Shown: positions 19,453 to 23,238 of the stretch, piece after piece | Layout of the letters: each line of letters begins with the position of its first letter | Numbering within the stretch: the stretch's first letter is position 1 | DNA from: Pseudoalteromonas sp. UG3-2 | Lineage (GTDB): Bacteria > Pseudomonadota > Gammaproteobacteria > Enterobacterales > Alteromonadaceae | Direction: 5' to 3' | Assembly: GCF_037120705.1 (NCBI RefSeq) | Contig: NZ_JAWLJU010000002.1 | Location: 3,074,001-3,138,000 of the forward strand | Length of the DNA: 64,000 nt | Position numbers and translations under genes: made by a program | The notes under the pieces: model-generated | What the model was told of the DNA's origin: nothing | The model's database searches: none | What the model saw: the letters and a program-made list of their open reading frames with translations, nothing else

Positions 19453-21033
19453 TTAACTAAACCACAACCAGGCAACAGTGCTTGCGGCCAGGCAATAGTA
19501 AAGCATTGGTAAAAGAGTATAGCGAATGATATCACCTTCTTTGCCCTGTAATCCTACGACACTGGCCGCGGCCACCACATTCACCACTGCTATCATGTTG
19601 CCGCCATTAGCCCCAAGCATTTGTAATGCCAACACCAACTGCTGCTCTATGCCTGCTTGGGAAGCTAACGCCTGCTGAAAGCTGGCAAACATTAAGTTTG
19701 AAAAGGTTGCCGAGCCGGCAATAAAAGCGCCCAGTGCCCCAACCAAAGGGGCAATAAATAGCCAGATATGGCTAAGATGAGCGGCAACTAACTCCGCTAA
19801 TGCCAATGGCATGGCCGGCAGGTTTGCGTGGTTTACCTCAGAGAAGAGAAAAATGCGTACCATAGGAACGGCTGCAGCAAGTGATATAAGAGAAGGGAGT
19901 AGCATGGTAGTGGTTTGTTTTAATGCGGCACCAAACTGTTTACTCGTACCTGCTTGTAACCAAATGGCAAGGGCTGCCGTTAAAACAAAGACGCTCCCTG
20001 GGATATACAAAGGCATCACGGTGACCGAAATAGTAGAGCCAAAAATATGACTCCAACTCATATTGATACTTTGGAGTAAGGCTTTGAAGGGCAGTTCAGG
20101 AAGCCGAGTAAGCACCAATAATAGCGCCACTAAGATATAAGGTGCCCAAGCACGATAAATAGTTAAACCTTGCTTGGTTGTCGTTTCGAGTGGCTCACTA
20201 TCTGGTGTAGGTGTTCTGGGTAACAGCATGCCTTTACGAGCCATTGGACAAATAATAGCAAGACCAATCATGGCACCTAATATTGAAGGAAACTCAGGAC
20301 CAAATAGCCACGCCACGCAGTAAGCTGGCAGGGTAAAGGCAAATGCGCTGAGGATGGCAAACGGCGCAATAACAAAGCCGTTACGCCAACTTGGTTGAGA
20401 GCTAAAAAAGCGACTATACATTAACACCATTATCAGCGGCAGCATGGCTGCAACAAAAATGTCGATGGCAATCGCTTTGACAGCAATACTGGCCACTTCA
20501 GATGCGCTCACACCAATGGCACCTTGACCAATGCCAACAATGGCTGGTGTACCGACTGCGCCAAAAGACACGGCACTGGAGTCGGCGATAAGTGCCAATA
20601 CCACGGCACTAAGGGGTGAAAACCCCAGAGCGACCAGTAACGGAGCGGCGATAGCCGCTGGAGTGCCAAAGCCGGCTGCACCTTCTAAAAAGCTGCCAAA
20701 TAACCAAGCAACAATAATAAGTTGCACCCGCTTATCTGGGCTAATTTCAGCAAAACCTTGTTTGATAACCAAGGTCGCGCCAGTTTGTTGCAACACTTTA
20801 AGCAGCAAAATAGCACCGAATACTATCCATAAAATAGTCAGTGCTATGATCAGACCTTCCATTGTCGCTGCAGCAATTTGTACCCCAGGCACTTGCCAAA
20901 CACTATAAGCACTAGTAGCGGTTAACAATAAGCTGATTGGCATCGCCGTTTTCGCGGGAAGGCGCAGCAAGACTAAGAATACAAATACACTCAGGATCGG
21001 AACCAAAGTGGTGATTAATTGCAACAAGTTCAT
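19453..21033 (-). CDS. L-lactate permease (LctP family)
   Basis: Polytopic inner-membrane transporter of 526 residues with 12 or more hydrophobic segments, of the lactate permease family. Diagnostic stretches are [16 protein letters not shown] (about residues 112-128), [15 protein letters not shown] and the C-terminal [22 protein letters not shown]. It presumably takes up L- and D-lactate or glycolate with protons. No lactate dehydrogenase gene is beside it. It is divergent from the dksA-like gene, from which it is separated by a region holding a candidate Zur operator placed close to the other gene. Confidence 0.9.
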
Positions 21034-21130
21034 GGTAGCGAAGTCCGTTTTATAATGCGTTTAGGTTAGCAGGTCAGCGCCGCCTTGGGTATGTTATTTA
21101 CGCAGTATGCATTTACCGTATTTGGCAAAG

Positions 21131-21153
21131 AGAGTGTTATGGTATAACATTTC
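21131..21153 (+). promoter_or_regulatory. Candidate Zur operator
   Basis: The core GTTATGGTATAAC matches the 13-base centre of the gammaproteobacterial Zur box (GTTATA-N-TATAAC) with one change, and the right flank ATTTC is the full consensus; the left flank matches at only 2 of 5 bases. The site ends 17 bases before the dksA-like ATG and overlaps a possible -10 (TATAAC, 21143-21148) with TTGGCA at 21122-21127 as a -35. Zur with zinc would repress the downstream genes. Confidence 0.75.
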
Positions 21154-21170
21154 TTTTTGTTTCAGGCTCG

Positions 21171-21614
21171 ATGGAATCTAGTATGCAAGATAATGCCAAG
21201 ACAGTAGACATACCCAGTGAAGAAGATATTCGCAATGCCCCCGATTCTGACTATATGAATGATGCACAACTTGCGTTTTTCAAAGCCTACCTCATTGAAT
21301 TACACGATATCACCCGAGCACATATCCGAAACGCCAAACAGGAGATGGCAAACCGACCGGAGTTAGCTGACCCCAGTGATTTAGCTTCTTGGGAAGAACA
21401 GTGCGCCATTTTGCTGCGGATTGTTGATAGAGAACAAAAGCTACTACCAAAAATTCAGCAGGCACTCGAACGAATCAGGTTAGGTGAATACGGGTATTGT
21501 GAAGAAACTGGAGAGCCCATTGGTATCCCGCGTTTATTGGCAAGACCGACTACCGAGTATTGCGCTGACGTAAAGCTCTGTCAAGAACTTAAAGAGCATG
21601 TGTACAGCGGTTAA
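21171..21614 (+). CDS. Zinc-independent DksA paralogue (DksA2-like)
   Basis: RNA polymerase secondary-channel regulator of the TraR/DksA family, 147 residues, with the coiled coil (about residues 35-105) and the C-terminal globular end. In canonical DksA four cysteines bind zinc; here the positions read C-E-E-T (GYCEETGEP) and C-A-D-V (YCADVKLC), so two are replaced. The same Cys/Thr pattern is known in Pseudomonas aeruginosa DksA2, which works without zinc and is made under zinc starvation. The candidate Zur box upstream and the DUF1826 neighbour fit this role. The ATG at 21171 may be replaced by the one at 21183; both are plausible. Confidence 0.85.
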   Translation: MESSMQDNAKTVDIPSEEDIRNAPDSDYMNDAQLAFFKAYLIELHDITRAHIRNAKQEMANRPELADPSDLASWEEQCAILLRIVDREQKLLPKIQQALERIRLGEYGYCEETGEPIGIPRLLARPTTEYCADVKLCQELKEHVYSG

Positions 21615-21683
21615 GAGGGTGATGGTTTACCAAAAAGGTAACAAAATTCCATTGTCATCATTGCAAGTAAATTGAGAGTTACC

Positions 21684-22394
21684 ATGCAAAAAACATCAAA
21701 TTTATTACCAGATCCGTTTTCTGGTTGGGAGAGTGAATCAATGTTGGCCAGTTCAGCAGCACCAGCGGCTTCATGGGAAGCAGGAACAAGTCCTGTTTCA
21801 TTAGGCGAAATCGTATCTGCAGAGAAAAGTGTGGCGGTATGGCAACGTCAAGTTGATAAAACCATTGCAACCTATTTTGAAAACACCTTTGAATCACTGG
21901 GTTTAGGTATACGTAGTGTGTTCTCAATGGCGTCACTTAAAAATAACCTTAATGAACTGCTGCCGGAAGCTAATGGTAAAACGGCAGCCATCAATGATGT
22001 CTATTTATTAGCCGATATGTTGACCTGTTTATTTGACTGCGATGGCGTTGGTTTACGACTTGCCCCTCTCTGTGAGGCTATGTGTCCTAAACTTCATGTC
22101 GATAAAATTGCGGTTCGTATGGTTAGCACTTATTTAGGCGAGGGCACCGAGTGGCTTCCCAATGAAAAAATAGTTCCAGCAGCTCAGGCGGGTACTGGTA
22201 AAGTTATTAAAACCGCAGTGCATCAAGGTTATTACAACAGTAAAGACATCAAACAACTTAATGCCTTTGATGTCGCATTGCTGAAAGGCAGCGCGTGGGG
22301 AGACAATGAAAGTATGTCTGCTATTCACCGCTCGTGCCAAGTGCCAAGCAATAGCAAACGCGTTTTATTGACCCTTGATCCACTTCAAAGTTGA
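21684..22394 (+). CDS. DUF1826 protein
   Basis: A 236-residue soluble protein of the DUF1826 family, recognised from CPKLHVDKIAVRMVSTYLGEGTEWLPN (conserved C-P-x-x-H-x-D, Arg and G-x-x-T-E-W) at about residues 130-160. Biochemical function is unknown; the His/Asp/Cys pattern suggests metal or substrate binding. In pseudomonads DUF1826 genes occur with COG0523 metallochaperones and dksA2 in Zur-controlled clusters, so its place 69 bases after the DksA2-like gene supports a role in low-zinc growth. The ATG at 21684 is used; a TTG at 21672 is less likely. Confidence 0.75.
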   Translation: MQKTSNLLPDPFSGWESESMLASSAAPAASWEAGTSPVSLGEIVSAEKSVAVWQRQVDKTIATYFENTFESLGLGIRSVFSMASLKNNLNELLPEANGKTAAINDVYLLADMLTCLFDCDGVGLRLAPLCEAMCPKLHVDKIAVRMVSTYLGEGTEWLPNEKIVPAAQAGTGKVIKTAVHQGYYNSKDIKQLNAFDVALLKGSAWGDNESMSAIHRSCQVPSNSKRVLLTLDPLQS

Positions 22395-22605: not shown

Positions 22606-23238
22606 TCACTCTGTTTTCTCTTTAAACTCGCACAGGTCTTCAATAATACAGCTGCCACACTTTGGTTTACGCGCGGTACACACATAGCGGCCGTGGAGAA
22701 TAAGCCAGTGGTGAACGTCCACTTTAAACTCTTTTGGTACCACCTTTTCTAGCTTTTGCTCTACAGCAACCACGTCTTTACCCATAGCAAATTTGGTGCG
22801 GTTAGACACGCGGAAAATATGGGTGTCGACGGCAATGGTGGGCCAGCCGAAGGCGGTGTTGAGTACTACGTTTGCGGTTTTGCGACCCACACCTGGAAGG
22901 GCTTCTAAGGCTTCGCGATTTTCGGGCACTTCAGAGCCATGTTTATCCACCAGGATTTGACACATTTTATAGACGTTGTTGGCTTTGGAGTTAAATAGGC
23001 CAATGGTCTTGATGTAGTCTTTTAAACCCTCAAGTCCTAAAGCCAATATTTTTTCTGGTGTATTGGCCACAGGAAATAGCTTACGAGTCGCTTTATTAAC
23101 CCCGACATCGGTGGCCTGGGCTGATAAGGTGACGGCGACGAGCAGCTCAAACGGTGAGGAATATTCAAGCTCAGTTTCTGGATTCGGGTTTTCATCCCGT
23201 AGCCGTGTGAGTATTTCTATGCGTTTTTGTTTATTCAT
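22606..23238 (-). CDS. nth: Endonuclease III
   Basis: DNA glycosylase/AP lyase for oxidised pyrimidines in base excision repair. The 210-residue protein matches E. coli Nth in length and has the helix-hairpin-helix EALPGVGRKTANVVLN with the catalytic lysine, the catalytic aspartate in AVDTHIFRVSNR, and the 4Fe-4S cluster cysteines in CTARKPKCGSCIIEDLC. It follows rsxE on the same strand, the conserved rsx-nth order. Confidence 0.97.
   Translation of the reverse strand: MNKQKRIEILTRLRDENPNPETELEYSSPFELLVAVTLSAQATDVGVNKATRKLFPVANTPEKILALGLEGLKDYIKTIGLFNSKANNVYKMCQILVDKHGSEVPENREALEALPGVGRKTANVVLNTAFGWPTIAVDTHIFRVSNRTKFAMGKDVVAVEQKLEKVVPKEFKVDVHHWLILHGRYVCTARKPKCGSCIIEDLCEFKEKTE

Follow-up and report, generated by a model that had tools for sequence, protein, structure and literature searches.

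What does a DksA paralogue with a damaged zinc site do beside a gene of the DUF1826 family, behind what looks like an operator for the zinc repressor Zur? The question is raised by a two-gene locus of Pseudoalteromonas sp. UG3-2, whose genome comprises 4,162,065 bases in two contigs; the locus lies in a 64-kb stretch of contig C2 (C2:3074001-3138000), called here the window and numbered from its first letter. The explanation that we regard as probable is a Zur-repressed two-gene low-zinc operon, in which DksA2 and DUF1826, the latter as a likely Fe(II)/2-oxoglutarate (2OG) oxygenase, fulfil two independent, co-regulated functions. This marine bacterium would then meet a shortage of zinc with an emergency unit of two genes, for a zinc-free transcription regulator and a predicted iron-dependent oxygenase. 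Zinc control of dksA2 and DUF1826 is already published, and the window unit is the Pseudomonas order dksA2-zigA-DUF1826 without zigA. New here is the predicted Fe(II)/2OG oxygenase fold of DUF1826, with a conserved triad and arginine.

Direct reading of the sequence places the operator 17 bases upstream of dksA2 and DUF1826 next, just as an earlier note on this DNA had described; on the + strand the order is operator, 17 bases, dksA2, 69 bases, DUF1826 and then nth on the opposite strand. The features of the unit are as follows.

21122-21150, + strand: weak sigma-70-like promoter, TTGGCA-17-TAACAT, 9/12 matches, overlapping the operator
21136-21153, + strand: putative Zur operator GTTATGGTATAACATTTC, one mismatch to the 18-mer consensus of other species' DUF1826 promoters, the best site of the genome
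21136-21148, + strand: operator core GTTATGGTATAAC, with right flank ATTTC to 21153 and, 17 bases further on, the ATG at 21171
21171-21614, + strand: dksA2, putative zinc-independent DksA paralogue, 147 amino acids (family profiles, solved relatives)
21498-21572, + strand: degenerate zinc site of DksA2, C110-x2-T113 ... C131-x2-V134 (direct sequence reading)
21684-22394, + strand: DUF1826 gene, 236 amino acids, predicted Fe(II)/2OG oxygenase fold (PF08856; AlphaFold2 model)
22095-22103, + strand: DUF1826 H138-x-D140, proposed iron ligands (residue conservation)
22326-22328, + strand: DUF1826 H215, proposed third iron ligand (residue conservation)
22359-22361, + strand: DUF1826 R226, proposed 2OG-binding arginine (residue conservation)

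The DUF1826 gene likely starts at the ATG at 21684, which has GAGAG just upstream; the TTG at 21672 is a mechanical alternative.

Predicted Zur operator and zinc-independent DksA2

The genome contains two Fur-family matches, one of which (L005) is identified as Zur by NCBIfam (E-value = 2.2e-48; 164.2 bits, slightly below the curated cut-off of 167) and matches the structure of E. coli Zur (4mtd, E-value = 1.2e-38). A Zur repressor is thus encoded in the same genome as the putative operator. To keep the motif independent of this genome, it was derived from named loci that carry a relative of DUF1826, namely the 80 best among at least 582 confirmed ones (hereafter best-80 loci). Upstream of the DUF1826 unit the core GTTATNNNATAAC is found without mismatch in 43 of 76 of these loci, with one window per locus and L021, L030, L036 and L067 dropped for their short flanks, versus 29 of 670 windows upstream of other genes from these loci; for genes belonging to none of the defined clusters, the count is 14 of 540. 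An alternative count, in which each locus contributes its best window out of one to five and which hence favours the observed side, gives 45/79 versus 29/700, with L030 dropped. The recurring promoter form in other species is the 18-mer GTTATGTTATAACATWWC. In the scan of the whole 4.16 Mb genome for this consensus the window operator ranks first: it is the single site with one mismatch, and the next-best site has two. Within the 64-kb window, GTTATGTTATAACATWWC at up to three mismatches yields two hits, which are one place on both strands (shuffle mean 0.21). The promoters of dksA2 lead to the same picture. Of 19 dksA2 promoters, 18 of them from a genus sample of 60 genomes (our own included) and the last from a sister genus, 17 have a site with at most three mismatches, or 16 of 18 when the window is excluded, and none of 133 control windows from dksA2 loci, mostly coding, has one even at up to four mismatches.

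Several results weigh against zinc control of a single transcription unit. When the window is shuffled 100 times, six of the shuffles also have two or more hits at up to three mismatches. Genome-wide, the core GTTATNNNATAAC by itself shows no enrichment (9 sites versus 13 for the reversed control), and the 18-mer at up to three mismatches shows no clear one (8 hits on one strand and 7 on the other, versus 3 and 9 in the control). The sigma-70-like promoter is not above chance, with four such sites in the region versus 3.3 expected, and is consistent with the proposal but not significant. From the 69-bp gap we infer that dksA2 and DUF1826 form one co-transcribed operon; a terminator scan gave results at chance level. 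The motif counts and the shuffles would suit an operator that is a chance palindrome, with genes not under zinc control. We give this reading almost no credence, because the window site is the genome's best for an externally learnt consensus, because this type of site recurs at nearly all of the remaining dksA2 promoters and is absent from the control windows, and because Zur is encoded in the genome. We rejected the genome-wide number of motifs as proof of a regulon for want of enrichment; the weight of the operator evidence is its rank and position, not the number of sites.

Zur control of the unit, as proposed in the earlier note, is therefore supported by the operator and the presence of Zur, both at the level of sequence. 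With zinc present, Zur-Zn bound at 21136-21153 would cover the promoter and block transcription, and in its absence dksA2 and DUF1826 would be made together. Derepression by zinc starvation or by loss of zur has been shown for relatives only; the unit would presumably be bound by Zur and induced. That dksA2 and genes of the DUF1826 family are controlled by Zur or by zinc, and that Zur sites precede genes for DksA paralogues devoid of the zinc finger, is described in passages of PMC5786701, PMC2770081, PMC9431628, PMC11761036, PMC10393844, PMC13083405, PMC4542158 and PMC8531726.

The product of dksA2 matches the Pfam domains DksA_N (E-value = 1.3e-14) and zf-dskA_traR (E-value = 3e-10), and scores 109.9 bits against the TIGR02420 dksA profile, under the cut-off of 115.5. 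Its zinc site reads C-x2-T/C-x2-V, versus C-x2-C twice in a separate, canonical DksA of the same genome (L001). Hence, the protein has indeed lost two of the four zinc cysteines, as first noticed, and the genome does hold a four-cysteine dksA besides it. The pattern C-x2-T/S ... C-x2-V is present in 16 of 20 dksA2 loci, window included, the four that depart from it being L137 and L141-L143. The closest solved relative is 4ijj ('putative C4-type zinc finger protein, DksA/TraR family'; E-value = 5.2e-28), which we take to be P. aeruginosa DksA2, and E. coli DksA (1tjl) comes behind it with an E-value of 9.6e-23. Profile, cysteine and structure matches support the assignment of the product as a zinc-independent DksA2. 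By homology to the characterised P. aeruginosa protein, it would serve on RNA polymerase without structural zinc, and according to a passage of PMC10393844 the P. aeruginosa DksA2 can stand in for DksA. Protein-level results argue in the other direction. In a P. aeruginosa proteome, as far as excerpts of PMC11761036 go, the share of DksA2 in the DksA pool goes up from 0.7% to no more than 1.3% and PA5534 is raised without firm statistical support (P = 0.42 and 0.056), and DksA is reported in part of PMC8531726 to persist without zinc. Because of these results, our confidence in a Zur-repressed low-zinc operon is slightly lowered. The genome also encodes a third DksA/TraR-like protein (L003, C2:162334-162432) of 119 amino acids, with cysteines FGYCCDCEQ...RCGGC.

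DUF1826 as a predicted Fe(II)/2OG oxygenase

The open reading frame (ORF) downstream of dksA2 matches PF08856 with an E-value of 2.8e-46 (158.4 bits versus a Pfam cut-off of 22). Its AlphaFold2 model is a confident one, with a predicted local distance difference test score (pLDDT) of 92.4, and the fold matches of this predicted model are Fe(II)/2OG oxygenases with a double-stranded beta-helix. They include protein hydroxylases and small-molecule oxygenases alike and do not decide the type of substrate. As in the hypoxia-inducible factor (HIF) prolyl hydroxylase PHD2 and the prolyl hydroxylase of P. putida (4j25), the predicted fold comes with HxD...H and a downstream arginine; unlike them, with which no sequence similarity was detected, DUF1826 proteins have two nearly invariant motifs, CP ahead of the HxD and HRS where the second histidine lies. 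All four residues, those of the triad and the 2OG arginine, are present in 239 of 248 distinct DUF1826 sequences, in 214 of 222 at 90% identity and in 160 of 164 at 70% identity, the residue count covering neither ORFs below 170 amino acids (2/147 hits), nor listed database proteins below 180 amino acids, nor identical rows. An arginine or lysine lies 11 residues past position 215 in 234 of the 248. The remaining nine sequences belong to one clade, in which D140, H215 and R226 were lost together and H138 was kept. Taken together, model and residues suggest that DUF1826 is most likely an Fe(II)/2OG-dependent oxygenase with iron held by H138/D140/H215 and 2OG by R226; its metal, co-substrate and catalysis we infer.

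Against this assignment stand the low Foldseek template modelling (TM) scores, 0.29-0.45 by query length, and a series of sequence searches. A Pfam scan of 58 DUF1826 members at E-values up to 10 gave no 2OG family, and a PHROGs scan of 12 members gave unnamed families only, at E-values of 0.09 or worse. The PDB sequence search returned no 2OG match and one weak match to a designed Rossmann protein (E-value = 0.57), and hhalign against an alignment of E. coli YbiX, a narrow template alignment (Neff 1.5), reported a probability of 0.8%. Since no profile matched, DUF1826 is not filed here under any existing Pfam 2OG oxygenase family. In addition, as the nine degenerate proteins form one clade, their concerted loss is perhaps one event.

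The same residues could be read differently, with DUF1826 as a zinc-binding protein (a store, a metallochaperone or a zinc enzyme) that holds Zn(II) at C134/H138/D140/H215. Consistent with this, CPxxHxD is invariant in the 58-member alignment, and C134 is absent from the very nine proteins that lack D140 and H215. Passages of the literature are also in line with it: PA5534 is called an annotated metallochaperone of unknown function (PMC13083405), and a Zn-sparing paralogue or Zn-chaperone has been suggested (PMC11761036). Furthermore, in 43 of the best-80 loci the gene immediately 5' of DUF1826, in the same orientation, belongs to the COG0523 family. However, the predicted fold is that of a 2OG oxygenase, the basic residue 11 positions after 215 fits a 2OG site and is needless for zinc storage, and our genome retains the gene without any COG0523 found. 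We consider a zinc-binding role unlikely, though worth keeping in mind. More speculative, and in our view improbable, is a metal switch, in which the almost invariant cysteine at position -4 relative to the iron histidine would let Zn(II) capture and silence the site when zinc is present. The enzyme would then be Fe(II)/2OG-active in zinc starvation only, hydroxylating a target of the low-zinc programme, and the dead paralogues of the genus, which have lost D, H and R and are Zur-boxed, would be non-catalytic partners or decoys. The degenerate clade (L178-L186, from genus relatives) has Zur-like sites with two to four mismatches just upstream, and its members are probable Zur-controlled pseudo-oxygenases.

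As an oxygenase, DUF1826 would oxidise a protein or small molecule with Fe(II), 2OG and O2 during zinc starvation, either replacing a zinc enzyme without needing zinc itself or modifying a target that the cell requires when zinc is low. If so, it is an iron enzyme inside a zinc-sparing programme, and the predicted iron/2OG site gives the family a first testable, enzymatic role. The gene is among those strongly induced by zinc depletion in P. aeruginosa (57.5-fold, in part of PMC4542158) and, as stated in a portion of PMC5786701, one of only three confirmed directly Zur-controlled genes in Francisella novicida. The earlier description of DUF1826 as a domain without known function calls for refinement: induction by zinc starvation was already published, and an Fe(II)/2OG oxygenase role can now be predicted. 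The F. novicida gene, FTN_1758, resembles the window gene in being a DUF1826 gene under Zur, induced there by zinc starvation, and differs in that the word dksA is absent from the main text of that paper (PMC5786701). Its authors, in the same portion, tied the domain to succinylglutamate desuccinylases, for which the fold found here gives no support. We found no statement in the literature that DUF1826 is an oxygenase, in a search outside which lay subscription journals, other databases and the Pfam clan table, so that an earlier assignment is possible.

Possible partners of DUF1826: DksA2 and COG0523

Does DUF1826 work with DksA2? The two genes are adjacent under one operator in the window, and the earlier note took this to suggest that DUF1826 works with DksA2 alone or with partners elsewhere. 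The comparison of neighbourhoods does not bear out a partnership. Apart from the window, dksA2 adjoins DUF1826 in one of the best-80 loci (L043, in the order COG0523-dksA2-DUF1826) and in none of 29 genus loci, 12 further genus matches and 19 class-level loci, the genus- and class-level flanks being mostly 1.5 to 4 kb long. At the 18 genus dksA2 loci, dksA2 is followed by COG0523 in 12 and by DUF1826 in one, the window; neither is found within about 1.5 kb in five. Because the adjacency is rare, it is no argument that DUF1826 works with DksA2.

Presence across genomes may be considered in the same way. The genus sample has DUF1826 in 40 genomes and dksA2 in 17, and 24 of the 40 lack dksA2; in the order sample, dksA2 occurs in 2 of 247 genomes. 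On the other hand, 16 of the 17 dksA2 genomes have DUF1826 (Fisher P = 0.005, without correction for kinship); if a complete active site is required of the DUF1826, the figure falls to 9 of 17 (P = 1.0). Of the 40 DUF1826-bearing genomes, 7 have only the degenerate form. On these counts we rejected an obligate DksA2-DUF1826 pair. A functional pair of a looser kind, e.g. with DUF1826 modifying or assisting DksA2 in low zinc, could draw on the shared operator, on L043, on the PA5536-PA5534 unit described in part of PMC10393844 and on the co-occurrence of the two genes, and is nonetheless very improbable in view of the DUF1826 genomes without dksA2, the COG0523 genes that follow dksA2 at most genus loci and the scarcity of dksA2 in the order. 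We thus retain two independent low-zinc functions bundled by common regulation, which would not involve a DksA2-DUF1826 complex.

In the best-80 loci, besides the 43 with COG0523 directly upstream, there are 25 whose fetched flanks contain no member of seven zinc-linked gene clusters; the exact core is present in 24 of the 25. The names of the clusters are readings of their representatives; the assignments of COG0523 (ZigA, NCBIfam E-value = 2.6e-204) and of MerC were verified with members found at other loci, whereas Zur, DUF2796, DUF3299, PyrC and FolE2 are named from the representatives alone. A MerC-family gene stands directly upstream of DUF1826 in L190, L194 and L195, being identified as MerC by Pfam on L190 only.

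In P. aeruginosa, PA5536-PA5534 is a Zur-controlled dksA2-zigA-DUF1826 unit (parts of PMC9431628, PMC10393844 and PMC4542158), in agreement with the mention of Pseudomonas clusters with COG0523 chaperones in the earlier note. The window has a DksA2 of the same type but lacks zigA. Scoring of all 51 candidates of the cobW family in our genome gave a single match with an E-value of 1.5e-4 and none at 1e-15; the lone match, a 457-residue protein, is read as Ffh, and a COG0523 partner elsewhere in the genome was accordingly rejected. That the module is reduced to two genes is thereby upheld. As no COG0523 GTPase was found, DUF1826 here would not need such a chaperone, and its retention separates it from the zinc-chaperone idea.

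In the genus sample, ZigA-type COG0523 (E-value of 1.2e-53 or better) is present in 31 genomes and any COG0523 at 1e-15 in 34, the latter count scoring up to 46 candidates per genome. DUF1826 and ZigA-type proteins occur together in 30 genomes (Fisher P = 1.7e-7, kinship not corrected). Ten, our own included, have DUF1826 without a ZigA-type protein; two of these (G002 and G009) have other COG0523, and the DUF1826 of G031 has internal stops. The window unit shares a Zur box and DUF1826 with the zigA-DUF1826 pairs of marine gammaproteobacteria, and its nearest DUF1826 relatives in the genus sample (61-62% identical) sit behind zigA; unlike in those pairs, DUF1826 is preceded here by dksA2. Among the nearest named relatives of its DUF1826 protein, two come from Pseudoalteromonas.

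The nth region and other Zur-like sites

The unit is flanked by two genes.

19453-21033, divergent: lactate permease, upstream neighbour
22606-23238, - strand: nth, downstream neighbour

The neighbourhood of nth and lactate permease was compared in 14 of the 60 genus-sample genomes. In three relatives the genes run dksA2, zigA, lactate permease, nth, which is the neighbourhood of the window unit, with dksA2 71-75% identical to that of the window; in two others, lactate permease directly adjoins nth. The DUF1826 copies 61-62% identical to that of the window, from G024 and G050, are located downstream of zigA, at distances of about 7 and 8 kb from nth. Four genomes have an nth that is 97-98% identical; in them, stretches of roughly 8.5 kb at this gene gave no match to lactate permease, dksA2 or DUF1826. 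The simplest history would be a dksA2-zigA-DUF1826 operon, as in P. aeruginosa, from which zigA was lost. Against it, no trace of zigA was seen in the 69 bp between the genes, by eye, in a three-frame translation set against the C-terminus of ZigA, for which reason the loss is presented as a conjecture.

Gene content on the 3' side of nth, where the window unit also sits, varies strongly, and L198, L199, L200, L201, L206 and L207 have extra partial nth matches up to several kb past the 3' end of the intact nth. This side of nth looks like an insertion hot spot.

Zur-like sites were also observed elsewhere in the genome. Two of them, 23 bp apart (L167, C1:457553-457598), lie upstream of the gene for a histidine-rich protein related to the zinc chaperone AztD (NCBIfam E-value = 5e-23, below cut-off; PDB 6cmk, E-value = 7.8e-15). 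Sites with three mismatches at C2:3287911-3287928 (L175) and C1:348405-348422 (L166) precede, respectively, a GTP cyclohydrolase II (ribA) gene and a gene for a TonB-dependent siderophore-type receptor; these two may be further Zur targets or chance.
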